DNA from: Nicotiana tabacum
Lineage: Eukaryota; Streptophyta; Magnoliopsida; Solanales; Solanaceae
NCBI RefSeq assembly: GCF_000715075.1
Contig: NC_134095.1
Location: forward strand, 9,100,722 to 9,164,721
Direction: 5' to 3'
DNA length: 64,000 nt
Shown here: one piece after another, positions 8,912-22,822 of the stretch
How positions within the stretch are numbered: the stretch's first letter is position 1
Layout of the letters: every line of letters begins with the position of its first letter
Notes under the pieces: generated by a model
The model's database searches: none
The model's input: only the letters and a program-made list of their open reading frames with translations
What the model was told of the DNA's origin: nothing
Program-made: the position numbers and the translations under genes

Positions 8912-9694
8912 TTAGTAAAGCAAGTCACTTTGCACTAAACCATGACCCCCAAAATCCAATAGAGAATCCCAATCAACTTCCACCTCATCACCTTCCTGAT
9001 AAGAGCATTCTTGATTTTCCATGTTCAGCATTCCAAAGAATCCATCAGAATCAGTTTGAACCAACATTCCATCCTTTGGTTCTAATTGTTCCACAGAAAA
9101 AGCATCAGACGAGGTACTCTCCAACATCATAGGATTGTTCTTAGAGAAAATCATAGTACTCTGTTGTGAGGGTTCTTGCAAGACACGGTCAATGAACCTC
9201 TTATATTCTACAACAGTAGCAATACTGTTTCCTCGGATTTCTGATCTGGGGTTCTTCTTAATTGCACAGATTACAAATTCTTTTGCTTCGTTAGATTTCA
9301 ACTGCTGAAGAAGAGAGTCAGCCAAAAAATACTCCATCATCAACCAACGGCCATTCAAAGAAGAGTCTTTCTTGTTCTTGTAACTCAAGCTTCTTTTATA
9401 CCCAATAATGAGACTCTCGTCCTCATCAAGAATCTCCTTGCCTTTATTCTGCTGTGTCCAAGTCCCATTAGAGGTAGTTCTGTTGAATCTGGCATCAGTG
9501 GGCTTCTTCTTCTTCAATTGAGTGAGGAAATAATGGGTTTTCTTGGTGTCTCCAATTAATTGCCATGGCTCTTTGCGGTAAACATCTGCAAAGTAAATTA
9601 ATCCTTCAGTTGGCAAGCATTTTCCAGCCAAAAACTTCAGCAATTGCATTATCAATTCAGTATCACAGGGACGAAATTGACCATTCTTCTCCAT
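8912..9694 (-). CDS. divergent NAC-domain transcription factor, 260 aa
   Basis: Predicted plant-specific DNA-binding transcription factor acting in the nucleus. With the ATG at 9694 as residue 1, the NAC subdomains appear in order: A, FRPCDTELIMQLLKFLAG (7-24); B, YFADVYRKEPWQL (34-46); C, HYFLTQLKKKKPTDARFNRT (54-73) and GTW..NKGKEI (77-88); D, IIGYKRSLSYK (96-106) and RWLMMEYFL (116-124); E, FVICAIKKNP (about 140-150). The usual GFRFHPTDEEL start is degenerate. The C-terminus is acidic (EGDEVEVDWDSLLDF), like an activation region. The frame extends 20 codons upstream to 9754, but the internal ATG is preferred because homologous NAC proteins start close to subdomain A. It is intronless, although most NAC genes have introns inside the domain, so it may be a retrocopy or a member of a fast-evolving Solanaceae clade. 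A 12.9 kb transposon composite begins about 200 bp upstream. Confidence 0.8.
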   Translation of the reverse strand: MEKNGQFRPCDTELIMQLLKFLAGKCLPTEGLIYFADVYRKEPWQLIGDTKKTHYFLTQLKKKKPTDARFNRTTSNGTWTQQNKGKEILDEDESLIIGYKRSLSYKNKKDSSLNGRWLMMEYFLADSLLQQLKSNEAKEFVICAIKKNPRSEIRGNSIATVVEYKRFIDRVLQEPSQQSTMIFSKNNPMMLESTSSDAFSVEQLEPKDGMLVQTDSDGFFGMLNMENQECSYQEGDEVEVDWDSLLDFGGHGLVQSDLLY

Positions 9695-9895
9695 GGATTC
9701 TTTCTTATGGATTCCCTTCTTTGTTGAAGACTGAAGAAAAATGGCACAAAACACTTTTTAGAATGCGAATGAACAAACACGAATAAGAAATAGCGTATCT
9801 TAAGTTTGAGGAGTTCAAGGTGGGTTTAGGAACATATAAAGACACATTCTTATTCCACTTTTGGAAACTAATTTTACAGCTGTGAGCGTGTGACT

Positions 9896-10558
9896 CAAGG
9901 GCGGCTCTAGGGTAAGGCAAGTGAACCCTTGCCTTCGGCCCAAAATAATTAAGGCCCCAAAAATAGAAAGTATTACTATATTATTATATAATATATACTT
10001 CATAATTTATATTCATATAATTATTAATAAAAGATTTTAAATTTTAATAATTTTTAATATTTGGTAGACGTAAAGATTGAGTGAGTTAATTGGAAAAAAA
10101 ATTTCTCACTAAATTAAATAATATATTTATCTTCTCATCAATTTTATTTTTCTTTATGTATAATCTTTTTTCATGGTTCTTACGATTTTACTTTCTAATT
10201 TCAACTCCGATTCTCTAAATTAACTATTTCTTTTGGTCACATTTGATTGAATCACATATCAGAAAGCAAGTTCTTTTGTGTCTCATCATTTTTAACTAAG
10301 AATTCCCCGAGGCAAATGTCGCAAGGTTCAAAACATAATGAATAATGGGCTCACCCTTTACCATTTTCACTTAAGGAAAGAATTCAATTCCATATGACGC
10401 GCGCCTAACTTATACATCATGAATTGTGCTCTCACCACTGTATCAAAATCATGTAGGTTTTTTTTGTGTCTCAATATTATACAAATTTTATAAAGACGTT
10501 TCAGGGTCTTTTTAATATATTTTGATTTAGGCCACCAGTTTTGTTGAGCCGCCCCTCA
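9896..10558. mobile_element. non-autonomous hAT-like sub-element
   Basis: Left end CAAGGGCGGCTCTAGGG at 9896. Right end, GCCACCAGTTTTGTTGAGCC followed by GCCCCTCA, ends at 10558 and is closely similar to the composite's far right end (GCCACCAATTTTACGGAGCC at 22788-22807). The interior is AT-rich with no coding capacity. The 8 bases outside its right end (ATTGACAA) do not match the left flank, so it has no duplication of its own. Confidence 0.6.
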
Positions 10559-11542
10559 TTGACAATCAACAATTATTTACAGACTACTGCCCTACTATAA
10601 ACGTACTGTTCAACCAGCTTCATTCACATTTGGTAACTGAATGACAAACTCGTTGTGTTTAATGCTCTTGTCATTGTTGCCTTATTTTAAGTGAGACTCT
10701 ATAAATTTTATTGAGAATGTCATGGGCGGATAAGTGGCTTTAGTAGGAGACTAGTAAAGCCTTGATTTAGGTCCCCAAAATTTTTAATAATGGATTTTAT
10801 AACTTTATTTCAAATTAGACAATATTAATGTTTGTAGAAAAAATAATAAAGTACATGTGATGACCCGGCCGGTCATCTTAAGAATTAAAGCCCCGATCCC
10901 CTATTAACTGCTTTCCCTAAGTTTATTTCTATTATTTTGATTTGCCGGGATGTTCGGTTTTGAGTTTCGGAGAGTTTTGGGACACTTAGTCCCTAAATGA
11001 GAGCTTAAATGTTGGAAAATTGACCGTAGTCGGAACAGTGTGAAGACGACCTCGGAATGGAAAACCGATGGTTATGTTAGCTTCGTTGGGTGATTTCGGG
11101 GTTAGGAGCGTGTTCAGATTGTGTTTTGGAGGTCCGTAGCTAATTTAGGCTTGAAATGCCGAAAGTTGAATTTTTGAAGTTTCCAGTCCGATAGTGAGAT
11201 TTTGATCCAAGGGTCGGAATGGAATTCCGGAAGTTGGAGTAGCTCCATAGTGTTGAATGTGATGTGTGTGCAAAATTTCAGGTCATTCAGACGAGGTTGA
11301 TAGACTTTTTGATCGAAAGCGTATTTTGAGGATTTTGGAGTTCTTAGGCTTAAATCCATGGTTAATTCGAGGTTTTGATGTTGTTTTAGGTGTTTTAAGG
11401 ATTGAGACAAGCTTGAATAAGGTATTAGATGATATTTGTGCTTTTGGTTGAGGTCCCGAGGGCCTCAGGGTGATTTCGGATAGTTAACGAGAAGTTTGAG
11501 GAAATATTGCAGCTGCTATATTTTTTGCTGCTTCTGGTATTT

Positions 11543-11745
11543 TCGCATCTGCGGTTTGGGGACCGCAAGTGCGGCGCCGCAGAAGCAGATTTTGGTATTT
11601 TCTTTAGGAACCGCAGAAGCGGTGGAATTACCATAGAAGCGGTACCGCATCTGCGGATTGGGAGTCGCAGATGCGGAAGCTGGCTCTTTAAGTGAAAGTC
11701 GTAGATGCGACATTTGTTCCGCAGAAGCGGGACCGCAAATGCGGA
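11543..11745. repeat. cluster of CGCAxxTGCGG-type imperfect palindromes in the LTR
   Basis: About a dozen copies of short words such as CGCATCTGCGG, CCGCAGAAGCGG, CCGCAAGTGCGG and CGCAGATGCGG are packed into 200 bp in both orientations. The 3' LTR has the equivalent at 19200-19406. Many are self-complementary, so the transcript could fold extensively (inference). Confidence 0.85.
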
Positions 11746-12649
11746 AACTGCTGGGCATTATTTTAAAAGGGGTTCCGCGACTTGGGGGTTTATTTCCACC
11801 ATTTCTAATCGTTTTTGGAGCTCTTTGAAGGGGATAGAAGAAGGATTCGAGGGGAATCGCTTGAAGGTAACATCTTCATAACTCGTTTTTATGTGATTAA
11901 AGACCTAATTAGTGATGAAAATTTTGGGGAAAATGGTTAATTAGGGCTTGAGTTTAAGAGACCTTTAAATGAGGATTTGAGGGGTCATTTGGACTCCGAA
12001 TTTAGTGTTCTTGTTATGTACACACTCGTGAGAGTACGAGGTTTCTGAAAATATAAATTTCACCCGATTTCGAGACGTGATCCTGAGGGGCGTTTTGGTC
12101 ATTTTGCGTATTAGCTTATAGTTTAATTGTAGAATCAGTTACTTGAAGTGTTATTTACATTATGCAATTAAATTGGATAGATTTGAGCTATTTGGAGTCA
12201 AGTACTCGTGGCAAGAACGTGGTCTCAGGTTGATTTTGAGCCGGTCCGAGGTAAGTGGCTTGTCTAACCTTGTGTGGGGGACCTTCCCCTTAGGATATGA
12301 TATATTTGATAATTTAAATGCCTTGTATGTGAGGTGACGAGTGCGTACTTGAGCTAATTGTTGAAAATCTGGTTTTACTTTAAGTACTTCAATTGAGTTC
12401 CTTTTTTCTGTTTTATTCTACTTGCGAATTTAGCTTGTTGTTAGTTTAGAAAAGCATGTTTAGTTGACTTAATTGCCTATTTGCTTAAACTGCCTTAATT
12501 GCATTATGTGAAGCATGTTAGGCTAGAATTAACTGTTTGCCTTAGTACGAAATTAACATTTAATTGAATATTCGTGTGGTTGCTGCTGTGTGTTTTTAAT
12601 TTGGGACTACGGGACGGAATCCCGGGAGATCCCCTGTGCGTATTTATGA

Positions 12650-12815
12650 TTTGGACTGAGGTGCGGGATACCAAGAGATCCCTGGCACGTGTATTGAGGA
12701 TACCAAGAGATCCCTAGCATATATTGAGGATACCAAAAGATCCTCGGGATACCAAGAGATCCCTTGTTTACAAGGAGGATACCAAGAGATCCTCGGGATA
12801 CCAAGAGATCCCCCG
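12650..12815. repeat. GGATACCAAGAGATCC tandem repeat in the LTR
   Basis: Six or seven units of GGATACCAAGAGATCC, alternating with short spacers such as CTCGG, CTGGCACGTGTATTGA and CTAGCATATATTGA. The matching stretch in the 3' LTR (20341-20456) has fewer units, so the copy number changed after insertion or during reverse transcription. Confidence 0.85.
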
Positions 12816-13489
12816 GTTATCATCCCTGCTATGAGTGTTTTCTCCTTGTGGTTTGCCTTTATCTCTGTTTCCGTTATTGTACTCTTATCATCCTGTATAG
12901 ATTTTTACTATAGATTCTCAATTTTACTACTTATCTTATCCGGTCATCTTATTATTTATTTAATCTTAGTAGGGCCCTGACCTTCCTCATCACTACTCGA
13001 CCGAGGTTAGGCTTGACACTTACTGAGTACTGTTGTGGTGTACTCATGCCCCTTCTGTGCATGTTATTCATATGCAGATCTAACTGCCACTACTCAGGCC
13101 TACCATCCTTGAGGGAGGCAACTGCTTTAGAGACTCCGAGGTACATCTGCCACGTTCGCAGACCAAGGAGTCCCTTTCTATTCCTGCCTTTAGTATTTAG
13201 TCCTTCTGTATTTTTCTATTCTTATTAGACATTCCGGAGTTAGAGCTATGTAGTATTTATCTTAGCTTGTGATTCGTGGGTTTCCGGGTCTTGGATTAGA
13301 TATTGGTTTTTGAGATTTATAAATGGTGTATGCCGAGCGGCACATTTAAACACTATTATTGCTTTATTTCTATTTTAAGTTATTTTACTTTCGCAAGTTT
13401 TGTTATCTTCCGCAATTTAGGCTTACCTAGTCGTAGAGACTAGGTGCCGTCACAATGGTTCACGGAAGGGCGAACCGGGATCGTGACAA

Positions 13490-13503
13490 GTTGGTATCAG
13501 AGC
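13490..13503 (+). other. primer-binding site (initiator tRNA-Met type)
   Basis: TTGGTATCAGAGC lies one to two bases after the 5' LTR end at 13488 and is complementary to the 3' end of plant initiator tRNA-Met, the primer of most chromoviruses. Confidence 0.9.
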
Positions 13504-13690
13504 TCTAGGTTCATAGGAGTCATGGATCACAAGCCGATTTATTAGAGTCTCGCTAATCAGTACGGAGACGTCTGTACTAATCTACGAGAGGTTATGTAAC
13601 TGTTAGGAAATTTTCTATTTCATTTGATTTCCTTGTCATGCGATATTTTGACATCATAATTCTAAACTCATGTTTTCTATTCTCTCACAG

Positions 13691-15112
13691 ATGGTGAGGA
13701 TACGTGCTACCTGAGATGATAAAGCATTCGCGCCCCCTACTACAGCCGTTAGAGGCCGGGGCCGGGGTAGAGGTCGGGAATGCGTATGTGAAGCAGCCAA
13801 AGCACCTATGCGAGCTGTCGCTGAGGTACCACCAGCGGATCTAGCGGGAGTCCAGGCACCTAACACGCCTACTGCTACTACTACTCCAGCCCTTTAGGAG
13901 ACTTTGGCACAGTTCATGAGCATGTACACCACTTTGGCTCAGGCAGGGTTGCTTCCCCTTGCTGCAGCTACGTCCCAGGCTGGGGGAGGAGCACAGACTC
14001 CCGCCGCCCGCACTCTTGAGCAGTGATTGCATGTTGAGCAGGTCCTTGAGATTATTCTTGTGCCGCCTGCAGTGTCAGTTCAGCCCGAGGACAGGGCATC
14101 GGCTTCCGAGGATGAGCAGCTGAGGCTTGAGAGGTTCAAGAAGTACAAGCCTCCAGTATTTAGTGGTCTAGCATTAGAGGATGCTCTGGGATTTCTTGAT
14201 GAGTGTTACCGCATTCTCCGTACCATGGGTATCTCAGGATCGAGCGGGGTCTCTTTCACTACCTTCCAGCTTCGAGGAGCCGCCTATAAGTGGCGATGCA
14301 CCTATGAGTTAGACAGTCCAGATGAGGCTGCTTCACTGACTTGGGCTCAGTTTTCAGATCTGTTCCTGAGGGAGTATGTTCCTCAAAGCCTCAGGGACGC
14401 ATGGCGCGCAAAGCATTTGCGCCAGGGTGCTATAACTATTTTAGAGTATGTTGTCCATTACACTAGCTTGGCTAGACATGCCCAAGCCTTGGTTTCTACT
14501 ATCCGCGAGAGGGTTCATCGGTTTATTAAGGGGCTTATTCCCAGCATCAGATCTAGCATGATTCGTGAGTTAGAGATGGATATTTTTTATCAGCAGGTGG
14601 TGAGCATTGCTAGGAGGATTGAGGGTATTCATGCTAGGGAGAGAGAGGAGAGGGAGGCCAAGAGGTCTCGAGAGTCGGGTCATTTCTCTAGTGCTTGTGC
14701 CCCAGCTGCAGGTCGTCATGGTAGGGGTTATATGAGTCGCCCTATTCATTTAGCTCTTTCAGCAGCTAGTAGTGCTCCAGCTCCTCCTAGGCCTCATGAG
14801 CCTTATTATGCACCTCCGGTTTCTAGCGCGCAACCTGCACCGGGTGCTTTTAGAGGTCAGTCCAGCAAACCTGGCCCTAGCCAGTCACAGCCACCGCATT
14901 CTCCCAGAGCTTGTTTTGATTGTGGTGACACACACCACGTGGTGAGGGATTGCCCTAGACTTGGGAGGAGTGTACCTCCACATACCTTTCAGCCACAGCA
15001 TGCCCCGCAGAGTTCCCAGGCTATAATTACAGCTCTAGTTGTTGCCCCACCTACTCAACCAGCTAGAGGTGGAGGTCGGGGAGGTAGGGGTCATCCTAGA
15101 GGGGGAGGCTAG
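13691..15112 (+). pseudogene. Tekay-like gag (capsid and nucleocapsid), disrupted
   Basis: Gag packages the retrotransposon RNA into cytoplasmic particles. The natural start is the ATG at 13691 after TCTCACAG (MVRIRAT). Stops at about 13712, 13898 and 14025 break the N-terminal region, leaving a 361-codon frame at 14027-15112. In that frame lie the capsid part (FKKYKPPVFSGLALEDALGF, the WAQFSDLFLREYVPQ block, residues about 30-130 of the frame), a basic linker, and a CCHC zinc knuckle, CFDCGDTHHVVRDC (about residues 297-310), with all four ligands intact. It ends in a Gly/Arg-rich tail. No separate host gene is implied by this long frame. Confidence 0.9.
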
Positions 15113-18100
15113 GCCAGATATTATGCCCTTCCTGCCCGTACGGAGGCTGTTGCCTCCGATTATGTCATCATAGGTATTATACTGGTTTGTCACATAGATG
15201 CATCAGTTCTATTCGCTTCAGGCTCCACTTACTCTTATGTGTCTTCTTATTTTTCTCCACATTTGGGTGTATCTCGGGATTCTTTGAGTTCCCCTATTTA
15301 TGTTTCTACTCCTATGGGAGATTCTCTTATTGTGGACCGCGTTTATTAATCGTGTTTGGTTGCTCTTAGTGGTTTTGAGACTAGAGTCGATCTATTGTTA
15401 CTCAACATGGTTGATTTTAATATTATCTTGGACTGGTTGTTGCCCCATTATGTTATTCTTGATTGTCACGCCAAAACTGTGACGCTGGCTATGCCAGGTG
15501 TACCGCGTGTTGAGTGGAGGGGTACTTTAGATCACACTCCCATTAGAGTTATTTCTTTCCTTAAGGCTCAACGTATGGTTGAGAAGGGGTGTGACAAGTA
15601 TTTAGCTTATGCGAGAGATGTCAGTATTGATACCCCTTCAGTTGATTCAGTCCCAGTAGTACGGGATTATCCCGATGTGTTCCCAACTGATCTTTTGGGC
15701 ATGCTGCCTGATAGAGATATTGATTTTGGCATTGATCTATTTCCAGGCACTCAACCTATTTATATTCCTCCGTATTGTATGGCTCTTCCTGAGTTGAAGG
15801 AGTTGAAGGATCAGTTTCAAGAATTGCTTGATAAGGTTTTTATTCGGCCCAGTGTATCGCCTTGGGGTGCTCCTATCTTGTTTGTGAAGAAAAAGGATGG
15901 TTCTATGCGTATGTGTATTGATTATCGCAAGTTGAACAAGGTCACAGTGAAGAACCGCATTTCTTTTTGCCTCGTATTGATAATATGTTTGACCAGCTTC
16001 ACGGCACACGGGTGTTTTCTAAGATTGATTTGCGCTCAGGTTACCATCAATTGAAAGATTCGGGAGCCAGATATCCCGAAGACTGCTTTCAGGACTTGGT
16101 ATGGTCATTACGAGTTCCTTGTCATGTCATTTAGGCTGACCAATGCCCTAGCAGCCTTTATGCATTTGATGCACAGTGTGTTCCGGCCATATCTTGACTC
16201 ATTCCTCATTATCTTTATTGATAATATTCTAGTGTATTCCCGGAATCAGGAAGATCATGAGTAGAACCTGAGGACTGTGCTTCAGACTTTGAGAGAGAAG
16301 AAGTTATATGCTAAGTTCTCAAAATGTGAGTTTTGGTTGGATTTAGTGGCATTCTTAGGTCACGTGGTATCGAGTGAGGGTATTTAGGTGGATCCGAAGA
16401 AGATAGAGGCTGTGCAGACTTGGCCCAGACCATCCTCAACTATAGAGATCCGCAGTTTCCTTGGTTTGGCGGGTTACTACCACCGTTTTGTGGAGGGGTT
16501 TTCATCGATTGCAGCCTCTATGACCAGCCTCAAGACAACTTTGACCACAACCCCAATTTTGATACTGCCTACAGGTTCGGGGTCTTATACGGTCTATTGT
16601 GATGCCTCGAGGATTGGCCTCGGAGCGGCGTTGATACAGGACAGTAGGGTGATTGCCTACGCGTCCAGAGAGTTGAAGATACATGAGAAGAATTACCCTG
16701 TTCACGACCTTGAGTTAGCTGCCATTGATCACCTCTTGAAGATTTGGCGCCATTATTTATACGGGGTTCCTTGTGAGATTTATATTGACCATAGGAGCTT
16801 GCAGCACTTGTTCAAGCAAAAGGATCTAAATTTGCGCCAGAGGAGGTGGTTAGAGTTGCTGAAGGACTATGATATCACTATTCTGTATCACTCGAGCAAG
16901 GCCAATGTAGTGGTTGATGCCTTGAGTCGTCGGACGGAGAGTTTGGGGAGTTTGGCTTATTTACCAGCATCAGAGAGGCCTATGGTGATGGATGATCAGG
17001 CCTTAGCCAGCCAGTTTGTGAGATTGGATATGTCGAAGCCCAGTCGGGTTCTTGCTTGTGTGGTTTCTCGGTCTTCCTTATTTGATCGTATCAGGGAATG
17101 GCAGTATGATGACCCTCATTTGTTTGTCCTTAAGGACAAGGTTCAGCACGATGATGCCAAAGATGTAACTACTGGTGATGATGGGGTATTGAAGATGTAG
17201 GGTCGGATTTGTGTATCCGGTGTTGATGTGCTTCGAGAGTTGATTCTGGAGGAGGCCCATAGTTCGCGGTATTCCATCCATCCAGGTGTCGTGAAGATGT
17301 ATCATGATTTGAGGCAGCACTATTGGTGGAGGCGGATGAAGAAAGATATAGTTGGATTTGTAACTCGGTGCCTCAACTGTCAGTAGGTGAAGTATGAGTA
17401 CCAGAGGCCGGGTGGGTTGCTTCAGCAGATAGAGATTCCAGAGTGGAAGTGGGAGCGGATCATCATGGACTTTTTAGTTGGACTCCCACGGACTTTGAAG
17501 AAGTTTGATGCTATTTGGGTGATTGTGGATCGGCTGACCAAGTCCGCTCATTCATTCCTATGTGTACTACTTATTCTTCGGAGCGGTTGGCGGAGATTTA
17601 CATCTGGGAGATTGTTCGTCTGCATGGTATTCCAGTTTTGATTATTTTAGATAGAGGTACTAAGTTCACATCACGGTTCTGGAGGGTTGTCCAGCATGAG
17701 TTGGGAACTCGGGTAGAGTTGAGTACAACATTTCACTCTCAGATGGACGGACAATCTAAACACACTATTTATATCCTTGAGGATATTCTCAGTACGTGTA
17801 TGATTGAGTTTGGATGGTCTTGGGATCAGTTCTTGCCATTAGCGGAGTTTGCTTACAACAACAGTTATCAGTAGTGTAGATCTCTGGTGGGTTGGTTTGA
17901 GCCGGGTGAGGCTAGACTATTGGGCACAGATTTGGTTCAGGATGCTTTGGAAAAGGTTAAGGTGATTCAGGATAGACTCCGTACAGCCTAGTCTAGACAG
18001 AAGAGTTACGCGAACCAGAAGGTTCATGATATTTCCTATATGGTTGGATAGCGGGTTCTGCTTTGGGTTTCGCTTATGAAGGGCGTCATGAGATTTAGGA

Positions 18101-18517
18101 AGAAAGGGAAGTTGAGTCCGAGGTTTATTGGACCTTTTGAGATATTGAGGCATGTTAGGGAGGTTGCTTATGAGCTTGCCTTACCTCCCAGCCTGGCCGG
18201 GGTTCATCCGGTATTTTATGTTTCGATGCTCAGAAGGTATCACGGTGATTCATTACACGTGTTGGATTTTAGTTCAGTCTAGTTGGATAAGGATCTATCC
18301 TATGTTGAGGAGCCGGTGACGATATTGGACAGGCAGGTTAGAAAGCTGAGGTCAAAGAACATTGCATTATTAAAGGTTCAGTGGTGGAGTCAGTCAGTCG
18401 AGGAGGCAACCTGGGAGACCGAGCAGGATATGTGCAGCCGTTACCCTCATTTTTTCACTACTTCAAGTATGTCTCTATGCTCGTTCGAGGACGAACGAAT
18501 GTTTAAATATAGGAGGA
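15113..18517 (+). pseudogene. Tekay-like pol: protease, RT, RNase H, integrase, chromodomain; disrupted
   Basis: Domains in order. Protease, about 15185-15520: the active-site Asp is replaced, LFASGSTYSYVS, with GCT at 15215-15217. Reverse transcriptase, about 15820-16400: [16 protein letters not shown] is present, a frameshift follows near 15955, and the catalytic FIDD is FIDN (AAT at 16223-16225). RNase H, 16560-16950: [14 protein letters not shown] and the [16 protein letters not shown] end. A block of about 20 residues before it appears deleted. Integrase, about 17210-18000: HYWWRRMKKDI zinc-domain part, [26 protein letters not shown], with several stops. Linker [20 protein letters not shown] (18076-18135). 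Chromodomain, about 18300-18460: SVEEATWETEQDM and RYPHFF. It cannot make a functional polyprotein. Confidence 0.9.
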
Positions 18518-21131
18518 TGTGACAACTCGGCCAGTCGTCTTAAGAATTAACGCCCCGATCCCCTATTAACTACTTTCCCCAAGTGTATTTCTGCTATTTT
18601 AATTTGCCGGGATGTTCGGTTTTGAGTTACGGAGAGTTTTGGGACACTTAGTCCCTAAATAAGAGCTTAAGTGTTGGAAAGTTGATCGTAGTTGGAACGG
18701 TGTGAAGACGGCCTTAGAATGGAAAATGGATGGTTCCATTATCTTTGTTGGGTGATTTCGGGGTTAGGAGCGTGTTCGGATTGTGTTTTGGAGGTCTGTA
18801 GCTAATTAGGGCTTGAAATACCGAAAGTTGAATTTTTGAAGTTTCCGGTCCGATAGTGAGATTTTGATCCGAGGGTCGGAATGGAAGAAGTTGGAGTAGC
18901 TCTGTAATGTTGAATGTGACGTGTGTGCAAAATTTCAGGTCATTCAGACGAGGTTTGATAGTATTTTTGATCGAAAGCGCAATTTGAGGATTTTGGAGTT
19001 CTTAGGGTTAAATCCATGGTTAATTCGAGGTTTCGATGTTGTTTTAGGTGTTTTAAAGATTGGGACAATTTTGAATAAGGTATTAGGTGATGTTTGTGCT
19101 TTTGGTTTAGGTCCCGGGGTCCTCGGGGTGATTTCGAATGGTTAACGAGAAATTTGAGGAAATGTTGCAGCTGCTGTATTTTTTGCTGCTTCTAGTATTT
19201 TCGCATCTGCAGTTTGGGGACCGCATGTGCGGCGCCACAGAAGCGGCTAAGGGGCCGCAGAAGTGGATTTTGGTCTTTTCTTTAGGAACCGCAGAAGCGG
19301 TACTGCATCTGCGGATTGGGAGTCGCTGATGCGGAAGCTGGCTCTTTAAGTGAAAGTCGCAGATGCGACACTTGTTCTGCAAAAGCGGGATCGCAGATGC
19401 AGAAATTGCTGGGCATTATTTTAAAAGGGGTTCTGTGACTTGGGGTCTTATTTCTACCATTTCTAATCGTTTTTGGAGATTTTTGAAGGGGATAGAAGAA
19501 TGATTCGAGGGGAAACCCTTGTAGGTAACATCCTTGACTTCATAACTAGTTTTTATGTGATTAAAGACCTAATTAGTGATGAAATTTTTTGAAAAAATGG
19601 GTAATTAGGGCTTGAGTTTAAGAGAACTTTAAATGAGGATTTGAGGGGTCATTTGGACTCCGAATTCAGTGCTCTTATTATGTACAGACTCGTGAGAGTA
19701 CGAGGTTTCTTAAAATATAAATTTCACCCGATTCCGAGACGTGATCTTGAGGGGCGTTTTGGTCATTTTTCATAATTTTGCATATTAGCTTATAGTTTAA
19801 TTGTAGAATCAGTTACTTGAAGTGTTATTTACATTATGCAATTGAATTGGATAGATTTGGGCCATCTGCAGTCGGGTACTCGTGGCAAGAACGTGGTCTT
19901 GGGTTAATTTTGAGCCGGTTCGAGGTAAGTGGCTTATCTTACCTTGTGGGGAGGGGACCTTCCCCTTAGGATATGATATATTTAATAATTGAAATGCCTT
20001 GTACGTGAGGTGACGAGTGCGTACTTGAGCTAATTGTGGAAAATATGATTTTACTTTAAGTACTTAAATTAAGTTCCTTTTTCCTGTTTTATTCTACTTG
20101 CTAATTTAGCCTGTTGTTAGTTTAGAAAAACATGTTTAATTGACTTAATTGCCTCTTTGCTTAAACTGCCTTAATTGAATTACGTGAAGCATGTTAGGCT
20201 AGAATTAACTATTTTACTTAGTATGAAATTAACATTTAATTGAATATTCTTGTGATTGCTGCTGTGTGTCTTTAATTTGGGACTACGGGACGGCATCCTG
20301 GGAGATCCCCTGTGCGTATTTATGATCTGGACTGAGGTGCGGGATACCAAGAGATCCCTGGCACGTGTATTGAGGATACCAAGAGATCCTCGGGATACCA
20401 AGAGATCCCTAGCATATATTGAGGATACCAAGAGATCCTCGGGATACCAAGAGATCCCCCGGTTATCATCCCTGCTATGAGTGATTTTTCCTTGTCGTTT
20501 GCCTTTATCTATGTTTCCGTTATTGTACTCTTATCATCCTGTATAGATTTTTACTGTAGATTCTCAATTGTACTGCTTATCCTTTCCGGTCATCGTATAA
20601 TTTATTTAATCTCAGTAGGGCCCTGACCTCCCTCGTCACTACCCGACCGAGGTTAGGCTTGGCACTTACTGAGTACCGCTGTGGTGTACTCATGCCCCTT
20701 CTGTGCATGTTTTTCATGTGCAGATCTAGGTACTGCGACTTAGTCCTATCACCCTTAAGGCGAGGCTACTGCTTTAGAGAGTCCGAGGTACATCTGTCGC
20801 GTCCGCAGACCAAGCAGTCTCTTTCTATTCTTGCCTTTAGTATTTAGCCCTTCTGTATTTTTTTGTTCTTATTAGACATTCCGGAGTTAGAGCTATGTAG
20901 TATCTTAGCTTGTGATTCGTGGGTTTTCGGGTCTTGGATTAGATATTGGTTTTTGAGATTTATAAATGGTATATGTCGGGCGGCACATTTAAACACTATT
21001 ATTGCTTTATTTCTGTTTTAAATTATTTTACTTCCGCAAGTTTGGTTATCTTCCACAATTTAGGCTTACCTAGTCGTAGAGACTAGGTGCCGTCATGATG
21101 GTTCGCGGAAGGGCGAACCGGGATCGTGACA
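18518..21131 (+). repeat. 3' LTR of the plus-strand Tekay-like element (2,614 bp)
   Basis: Colinear with the 5' LTR, beginning TGTGACAACTCGGCCAGTCG directly after the purine tract AGGAGGA and ending GGGATCGTGACA, followed by the duplication GTACA. It differs by scattered substitutions and small indels (for example a shorter GGATACCAAGAGATCC array and a missing GGAATTCC-like block near 18885), so the insertion is not recent. Confidence 0.95.
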
Positions 21132-21670
21132 GTACAAAAAAAATTGTAAAAAAGGAAAGAAAGGTGTCTACTCTTAAACAGTAAAAATATTTTTAAAACT
21201 TTGAATTAAACTACTTAAATCTTCATATTAGTAAATATATTTTCTACAACAATATCAAAGGTAACATATTGCAAATACATGTCTAATATCTCATTCATTT
21301 AAATTTTCCTTTTCTAATATAAATAATAATATTACTATGTGAAGTTAAAGACTATGTCATTTAAGAATATATGCTATAAACAACAAGTATGAAAAAATGG
21401 ATTAGTTACCTCCTATAGCAAAGGTTGATACCTTATTTATTTTAAATAAATGCTCTTTTAAAAAAATTATATTCTATAGCTATCTTTTGATTTTTATAGC
21501 CAAATATCTATTTATGGTTACCTCCTACCCTTAAGCCATAAAATATTCTTTGTATTATTTCTCTCATTCTTTCAGATTTTTGCCGCTTTCTTCTTCGCTT
21601 TTTCTTCCTTGTTATTTCCTTGTACGCCACCAAAATTCCGATTCCAATCACAAACACCAGATTCAAAAAA

Positions 21671-21826
21671 ATGGCTGAAGATTTAGTATTGGATACAACA
21701 ATTAGAGACTGGGTATTAATCCCGCTCTCAGTTGTTATGGTCCTAATTGGAATCCTCCGTTACTTTGTCTCAAAGCTTATGCGTTCTTCTACTCAAGTAC
21801 CTGATCCTAAAATCATCAAAGAAGGG
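21671..21826 (+). pseudogene. EMC3: captured first-exon fragment of EMC3 (ER membrane complex subunit 3)
   Basis: EMC3 is the insertase subunit of the ER membrane protein complex, which inserts tail-anchored and multi-pass proteins. The 52 codons from ATG 21671 match the N-terminus of plant EMC3 closely: MAEDLVLDTTIRDWVLIPLS at the start, the first membrane segment (about residues 15-32), then YFVSKLMRSS and PDPKIIKEG. A plausible 5' UTR precedes it, with a CT-rich stretch from about 21555 and an AATCACAAACACCAG leader. Similarity stops at codon 52, where the normal protein (about 245 aa) would continue; an open tail of unrelated residues runs to 21934. It lies in transposon DNA near the right end of the hAT-like composite and is fused to a cytochrome c piece, so it is a transposon-captured fragment and not the gene. 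Confidence 0.88.
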
Positions 21827-21894
21827 TTCATTTCTAACACTATTTTTATTAGGTTATACTTTCTGAAAATCAGAAAAAGCCCCAAATTCAAAAA

Positions 21895-21963
21895 ATGGCA
21901 TCTTTCGCAGAGGCACTGGGGAACGAAGCAGTAGGGGCAAAGATCTTCAAGACCAAGTGTGCC
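21895..21963 (+). pseudogene. captured N-terminal fragment of cytochrome c
   Basis: Cytochrome c carries electrons between complexes III and IV in the mitochondrial intermembrane space. From ATG 21895 the 23 codons read MASFAEALGNEAVGAKIFKT then KCA, matching the plant cytochrome c start (MASFxEAPPG...GxKIFKTKCA). It stops just before the haem-binding CxxCH, of which only the first Cys is present. After KCA the frame continues with unrelated residues to a stop at 22005. It begins only 69 bp after the EMC3 fragment, in another frame. The intervening bases (21827-21894) may be cytochrome c 5' UTR or transposon sequence. Confidence 0.85.
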
Positions 21964-22019
21964 CCAAATTTTGAGGGTTTCGAGTCAGAATCGCGGCTCT
22001 CTTGACGAGACGACATTTT

Positions 22020-22610
22020 CTGTTAATATATTTCAATGTATTTTCAATGTATCACGCTGTATTTTCACGTATTTCATTGTATTTTTTTTCATTGTAATTC
22101 AATGTATCTTGCTGTATTCTATGTATTTCATCGTATGCACTATCTTTTTTTCAATGTATCCCGTTGTATTCTATGTATTTCATTGTATTTCACTGTCTCG
22201 CTATATGCCATGAATGTATTCGTATATTTTTTTTAATTAATATAATTTATGTATTCAGATGTATTATATAATTTTCCGAAGATTGCTATATTTTTGGGGT
22301 ATTTTTCGGTTGAGAATCTTTTTATAATTGGAAATACAAAATTTGTGTGTTATAATTGAGTTTGTTGAGTTATATTAGGAGTCTATTATGTTAATTGATT
22401 CACTTTCCATTTAAAGACAATGTAATCCCCTGTTTCACGCCGTGAATACAGTCGAATACAATAATTTGTCCAGCTGTAATACCATGTTTCACGCCATGAA
22501 TACAGTCGAATACATTCGAATACAACAACTGATTAGCTGGACTTCCCTGATTTACGCCTATTTTTGCTACTGTTTTCATGAATACAGATACTTAAATACC
22601 TCTAATACAT
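22020..22610. repeat. TGTATT/GAATACA-rich region flanking the captured exons
   Basis: Words such as CAATGTATTT, TTTCATTGTATT and CTGTATTCT recur through 22025-22230, and the complementary type GAATACAGTCGAATACA recurs at 22443-22530. The inverted sense of the two halves and the paired ACGCC.TGAATACAGTCGAATACA units (from 22437 and 22491) suggest the body of a non-autonomous DNA transposon that carried the exon fragments. Faint inverted similarity exists between about 21470-21520 and 22640-22690, but I could not fix ends. Confidence 0.5.
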
Positions 22611-22822
22611 CTTATAACAACAGAAAACATATCTACAATTCGTAATATAACAAATAGTATCTATAAATAGCTAATTACCACTAAAATATAGTGCTTTATG
22701 AAAATTTCTCTTAATTTTTTTGCATATATGTGTGTATACGTACTAATAAAAAAAGTATAAGGCCTCTTATTAAAGTTTGGCTTTAGGCCACCAATTTTAC
22801 GGAGCCGCCCTTAGTGTGACTC

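Follow-up and report, generated by a model that had tools for sequence, protein, structure and literature searches.

Among the mobile elements that carry pieces of host genes, Pack-MULEs, reportedly treated by Jiang et al. in 2004, are the first to be considered for the element analysed here in Nicotiana tabacum. Pack-MULEs are described in the accessible portions of PMC6446971 and PMC3310237, the latter giving 1000-1200 bp as their most abundant size in tomato. As far as these portions go, our element is like them in being non-autonomous, in carrying host gene fragments, in the 9-10-bp target duplications, in existing in several copies and in its size class (about 1-1.4 kb); it is unlike them in that no terminal inverted repeat above chance was found in four of the five copies compared, and in that it contains two ordered captures, the second within the first, of which intermediates with cytochrome c (CYTC) only are still present. 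Non-TIR MULEs (VANDAL-type; PMC6446971, same portion) likewise combine a duplication of Mutator-type length with the lack of clear inverted repeats; VANDALs, however, are apparently autonomous, whereas the reading frames of our element all stay below 200 aa, and it is non-autonomous by that measure. Pack-TIRs formed by gap filling/FoSTeST (PMC8277862, in the part available) share with it the internal capture, the short breakpoint overlaps (median 2 bp, versus 2 bp at one junction here) and the subsequent multiplication, but they are described in animals; the authors state there that it would be worthwhile to examine whether their models apply to plant Pack-MULEs. Pack-TYPE elements, as outlined in the available text of PMC8903248, are also non-autonomous DNA transposons that acquire coding DNA, with hAT members among them; the route proposed for them is tandem insertion with re-mobilisation, whereas internal replacement would fit better here. 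Finally, the maize retroelement Bs1 (PMC13317346, available part) also unites fragments of several host genes in one mobile element, but it is an LTR element formed by RNA-based transduction, unlike the present case of genomic DNA with intron sequence. The process described below is a known one, Pack-MULE-type capture of host gene pieces; it is neither a new kind of capture nor capture by a hAT element. Among the titles and abstract beginnings listed in the literature search, no description of this element was found, and none for the gene names A4A49_65971 and A4A49_64391 (see below).

The window (the whole stretch of DNA that was analysed; 64,000 nucleotides) lies on contig C16 of the 4.0-Gb N. 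tabacum assembly. Its features are listed in Table 1. With a probability of roughly 0.9, we read the element as a Pack-MULE-type non-TIR MULE of about 1.31 kb, which lies in an unrelated hAT copy and was formed by two captures.

Table 1. Features of the window around the captured gene pieces
Feature	Position	Strand	Basis or remark
hAT-like element, abundant family	9896-22813		fetched-locus alignment; ~1.33 kb without its two insertions
Ty3/gypsy-like LTR retrotransposon inside hAT	10856-21131	+	outside the captured-gene element
LTRs of the Ty3/gypsy-like element	10856-13488; 18518-21131	+	BLAST match 88.7%, K2P 0.084
MULE-like non-TIR non-autonomous element with CYTC and EMC3 pieces, ~1.31 kb	21399-22710	+	absent from 17/19 hAT loci
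MULE-family 5' unit, common to copies without CYTC	21399-21581	+	5'-unit search
CYTC 5'UTR, upstream part	21582-21635	+	aligned to donors L037 (C6), L038 (C4)
Captured EMC3 genomic DNA, ~220 bp	21636-21855	+	alignment to donor genes L039 (C11), L040 (C13)
EMC3 5'UTR tail	21636-21670	+	donor alignment
EMC3 exon 1 coding, 51 codons + 2 nt	21671-21825	+	donor alignment
EMC3 intron 1, first 30 bp	21826-21855	+	donor alignment
CYTC 5'UTR, downstream part	21857-21894	+	siblings without EMC3 (L029-L036, L041) and donor genes
CYTC coding, 23 codons + 1 nt	21895-21964	+	donor alignment
MULE backbone, 3' part	21965-22710	+	includes final codons of the fused frame with its stop (to 22005), tgtatt-type repeats
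GT...AG stretch, 116 bp, putative intron	21797-21912	+	removal gives in-frame EMC3-CYTC fusion

The translation of 21671-21826 reads as the N-terminus of EMC3 (MAEDL...KIIKEG). It is matched by Pfam EMC3_TMCO1 (E 2.3e-9, above the family cut-off), by plant EMC3-type proteins in the protein search (best E 2e-21; 63 of 64 candidates at E <= 0.001) and by solved EMC3 chains in the structure search (E about 1e-5), and the donor DNA matches as well, with an identity to the window copy of 94% for the gene on C11, the best donor, and 93% for that on C13. The proposal of the initial annotation that an EMC3 N-terminus with its own ATG and 5'UTR is present here was thus borne out; of the 52 codons it had assigned, the translation indeed runs to 21826, but the coding part of exon 1 stops one base earlier, after 51 codons and 2 nt. 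The CYTC N-terminus (MASFAEA...KTKCA) was read from 21895-21963. Its protein match is weak when taken alone: the sole Pfam row was an unrelated family (E 0.11), and PDB 1ccr matched the 36-residue reading at E 0.02. The identity was settled by DNA, for which a 74-bp CYTC query gave 15 genomic places (15/15 scored), two of them genes (C6 and C4) that continue as cytochrome c past the breakpoint; the CYTC start with its own ATG and 5'UTR, likewise proposed earlier, is confirmed by these places. The C6 gene is the best CYTC donor (96.6% to the CYTC-only copy L041).

Coincidence of the breaks with exon ends, as considered in the initial annotation, was found in the donor alignment for neither piece. 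The EMC3 piece continues about 30 bp into intron 1, and therefore genomic DNA, not cDNA, was copied. The CYTC piece begins at GCCGC, directly after the TATA-like CTATAAA of the donor, and its 3' breakpoint, between TGTGCTC and AATGCC, falls 39 nt short of the GT at which the donor exon apparently ends. The gap between the two coding pieces consists of EMC3 intron followed by CYTC 5'UTR. The 10-bp repeat GCCCCAAATT that flanks the CYTC piece was considered as a target duplication and rejected; the other aligned copies differ at the 3' place, where they mostly have GCTCCAAATT or GCTCTAAATT, and GCCCCAAATT at this place is therefore a mutation in the window copy.

A genome search was performed with 21640-21980 as the query, and all 18 candidates were scored: four fusions, three EMC3 genes or paralogues (one gene on C11, one on C13 and, also on C13, a diverged copy), nine CYTC-only elements and two CYTC genes. 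The latter two groups (11 of 18) match only from 21854 onward, and the 74-bp CYTC query recovered the same 15 CYTC places. Both donor genes occur in pairs in the N. tabacum genome, and the donors are identified to the gene pair. The fusion copies are the window and three places on C10 (L002, L003 and L004); they form one group with a FastTree support of 1.0, show 93-95% identity to each other and 89-92% to the CYTC-only copies, and have a single origin. The expectation that the fusion would have further genomic copies thus held, with four places in its own genome. An assembly chimera was ruled out by these four places and by two annotated proteins of N. attenuata that contain the fusion. The fusion is genuine and occurs in N. 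attenuata too, and its intermediates document it unusually well.

The initial annotation had ascribed the capture of two unrelated genes' 5' ends to a hAT-like transposon; capture by a transposon stands, but a transposon other than the hAT was responsible. The gene pieces do sit within outer hAT ends that bear an 8-bp target duplication (GTGTGACT at 9888-9895 and 22814-22821), and Pack-hAT elements are reported from maize and rice in the available text of PMC8903248, so that capture of both pieces by the hAT itself deserved attention. The hAT family is very abundant (2877 first-look candidates with segment 21137-21397, 40 scored). The 19 hAT loci that were fetched (L010-L028, of which L018 and L022 overlap) align to 21131-21400, many of them also through 9896-10855, the left end being cut short in some, and 17 of them to 22711-22812; these 17 pass from 21397-21400 to 22711 with just 5-11 bp between, and the remaining two (L015 and L027) give no alignment at 22711. 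The block between is therefore a separate element that landed in one hAT copy. Conversely, L002-L004 match the near-complete block (21396-22716) alone, with none of the hAT around it, and the CYTC-only relatives have their own ends, with an exact duplication in 4/9. Capture by the hAT is accordingly extremely improbable. As for the hAT duplication in ten other copies, it was exact in six, had 7/8 letters in one and 3-6 letters in three, shifts of up to 2 bp being allowed in the scoring.

The ends of the inserted element are GGAATTTTTACC...GAAAATTTCTC, with the termini GG...CTC. Target duplications were judged on the flanks of the window copy and 12 further copies (n = 13). An exact duplication of 9-10 bp abuts the ends in six (L002, L004, L030, L033, L034 and L036), one with a single mismatch was found in L035, and in the remaining six (window, L003, L029, L031, L032 and L041) none abuts the ends. 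Note that the duplications of L030 (low-complexity) and L035 were scored by eye and not picked by the script, and that the script's 8-bp matches in L031 and L032, which are not adjacent to the ends, were left uncounted. In the window copy, the hAT target is short by about 5-7 bp at the site of the element; a duplication of MULE length (8-11 bp) is thus a property of the family and not of the window copy itself. When the first and last 200 bp were compared, no terminal inverted repeat above shuffles was detected in the four copies mentioned above; for the fifth, L036, 8/300 shuffles equalled its score, and its ends may hold a weak repeat. Mutator-like target duplications in plants are 8-11 bp long, and some such elements lack inverted repeats, according to the accessible portion of PMC6446971. 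From the 9-10-bp duplications together with the lack of a clear inverted repeat, the element was classified as non-TIR MULE-like, of the Pack-MULE type, and it would have been mobilised in trans by a Mutator-type transposase. Helitrons and retrotransposed cDNA are also known carriers of gene pieces and could in principle have delivered those seen here; Helitrons make no target duplication and have a 5' TC and a 3' CTRR. The duplications in 6/13 copies and the ends GG...CTC clash with these Helitron features, and the roughly 30 bp of EMC3 intron 1 behind exon 1 speak against cDNA; we give next to no credit to either route.

The order of the two captures was read from the relatives of the element. 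A search with the 5' unit (L036:2230-2475) gave 1887 first-look candidates, and the 40 scored comprise 13 copies with CYTC and 27 without, the latter matching roughly the first 189 bp of the query only. In 17 of the 27 CYTC-free siblings that were inspected, the 5' unit is common and parts of the 3' backbone are found within the fetched stretch in 16, while the middles differ, some being partly common between copies. In one of them (L066), the position of CYTC is taken by some 310 bp of different sequence, possibly cargo in its turn, and the backbone resumes near the CYTC breakpoint. The nine CYTC-only copies and the donor genes retain, uninterrupted, the stretch of CYTC 5'UTR that EMC3 interrupts, and the four fusion copies have about 220 bp of EMC3 DNA in place of about 31 bp of this stretch; since the CYTC-only siblings keep the 5'UTR intact, EMC3 entered second. 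About 140 bp in the 3' backbone of most CYTC-only copies is missing from the four fusion copies.

The formation of the element can then be pictured in two steps. In the first, CYTC DNA of about 190 bp (5'UTR and 23 codons) was placed between the MULE 5' unit and the 3' backbone; this too was probably a replacement, a point made with reserve because the middle of L066 may itself be cargo. In the second, about 220 bp of genomic EMC3 DNA replaced about 31 bp of CYTC 5'UTR in one CYTC-carrying copy, most likely by template switching while a break inside the element was being repaired. The replacement, the genomic template, the internal position and the short overlap fit gap repair with template switching; we keep the repair route conditional because the overlap at the left EMC3/CYTC junction is 2 bp (AA at 21634-21635) and the right junction is ambiguous by a few bases. 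Tandem insertion with re-mobilisation fits less well because CYTC 5'UTR flanks EMC3 on both sides. The fused element then multiplied to at least four places in N. tabacum, and the same fusion is found in N. attenuata.

In our judgement, the states before and after a gene capture are seldom found together in one genome. The N. tabacum genome holds the CYTC-free family, the element with CYTC only, the element with CYTC and EMC3, and both donors; the second capture can therefore be read base by base, with about 220 bp of genomic DNA taking the place of about 31 bp. This series makes the gap-repair idea testable for plant Pack-MULEs.

Two of the 17 CYTC-free siblings (L072 and L064) carry other gene-like pieces. 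The frame in L072 matches a portion of a phosphate:H+ symporter (TIGR00887, E 6.7e-39, 134 bits; the score is far under the whole-protein cut-off, as expected of a fragment). This cargo is an internal symporter-like piece on the reverse strand, from about 1378 down to 1022 (C8:59135981 region), and occurs at 19 genomic places including itself, ten of which match at 92-100%; either this cargo too has multiplied or the gene family is young. L064:1841-1993 (C3:156760031 region) resembles the start of a gene with UVSSA_N (Pfam E 1.7e-4, below the cut-off), which was the sole match under E 0.001 when seven sibling frames were compared with Pfam. The piece has four genomic places including itself, and two of them, matching at 78% on C19 and C7, may represent the UVSSA donor gene pair. 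From 1873 onwards, L066 has a frame that resembles a plastid transit peptide (MATATLASHHLHCCFSSS...), without a Pfam match. A copy of the MULE with UVSSA cargo is also present on C11 (L073:235-926 and L039:2577-3134), where about 0.86 kb separates its end from the captured part of the EMC3 donor downstream; it is split by an insertion of roughly 5.3 kb with TG...CA ends and a GTATT duplication (by eye). This copy shows that the family visited the EMC3 donor locus; it has no CYTC and so is not the parent of the fusion.

Few cases speak for repeated capture in one slot: CYTC, EMC3 inside CYTC, the UVSSA-like start and the phosphate-transporter piece of the siblings. It is conceivable, if unlikely, that the MULE family has a break-prone internal slot that would be serially refilled from host genes by repair, the refilled copies being transcribed in some species and spliced into hybrid membrane-anchor peptides.

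As for expression of the fusion, removal of the GT...AG stretch would give a predicted frame of 72 codons and a stop (21671-21796 joined to 21913-22005). The two N. attenuata proteins, P0057 (A4A49_65971) and P0059 (A4A49_64391), both 73 aa, consist of EMC3 residues 1-42 in frame with CYTC and the same tail, and their joint equals the removal of this stretch; the simplest reading is that the joint is an intron placed by annotation. Both share a valine that marks the fusion copies, at which the nine CYTC-only copies and both CYTC genes have an alanine codon. Both differ from all four N. tabacum fusions, and they therefore represent other copies. In the protein search with the CYTC-only reading, the candidates (3/3) were P0057, P0059 and one weak cytochrome c match. 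The database name of both proteins starts with 'ER membrane protein complex subun...', and the naming is likely an annotation error on transposon-borne fusions; the practical error exposed is that two transposon pieces of N. attenuata stand under an ER membrane protein complex-type name.

Only these two gene models suggest a chimeric transcript, and the fusion might be a young expressed gene, transcribed within the element, spliced at a 115-119-bp intron and translated into a 72-73-residue protein made of the first membrane segment of EMC3 and the cytochrome c leader. P0057 and P0059 are exactly such a fusion, and the GT...AG stretch (115-119 bp) and the open frame (72, 72, 73 and 73 codons) are kept in all four N. 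tabacum copies, which could hint at use. The changes against the majority sequence of the four copies are, however, 19 nonsynonymous and two synonymous, where the fractions expected without selection are 0.69 nonsynonymous, 0.285 synonymous and 0.03 stops (calculated with an assumed transition weight of 4), and 21 changes would leave the frame free of stops with a probability of 0.54. In this small sample of four copies the fused frame shows no evidence of purifying selection, and a working fusion protein is on this account unlikely. By hand inspection, moreover, the acceptor falls within what used to be coding sequence and has a scant pyrimidine tract, and a CAG two bases before it would throw CYTC out of frame. 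We therefore consider a young gene very doubtful, and any transcript would be a by-product and not a selected gene.

The element copies might also be a source of small RNAs with EMC3 and CYTC as targets. Between the window copy and the C11 EMC3 gene, 107 distinct 21-mers are shared and the longest exact run measures 98 bp; for the C6 CYTC gene the figures are 40 and 36 bp. Action in trans is therefore possible; on the other side, strong silencing would be costly if both donors, which we take to be housekeeping genes, are such. Such an effect is on the whole improbable.

The other insertion in the hAT, the Ty3/gypsy-like retrotransposon, contains gag/pol-like frames (by eye) and is flanked by the target duplication GTACA (10851-10855 and 21132-21136). 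The alternative of two adjoining hAT elements, with inner ends near 10554 and 10720, was rejected; several ordinary hAT copies align through 9896-10855 unbroken. Just left of the hAT, a reading frame on the minus strand (8912-9754) resembles a piece of a NAC-type transcription factor.
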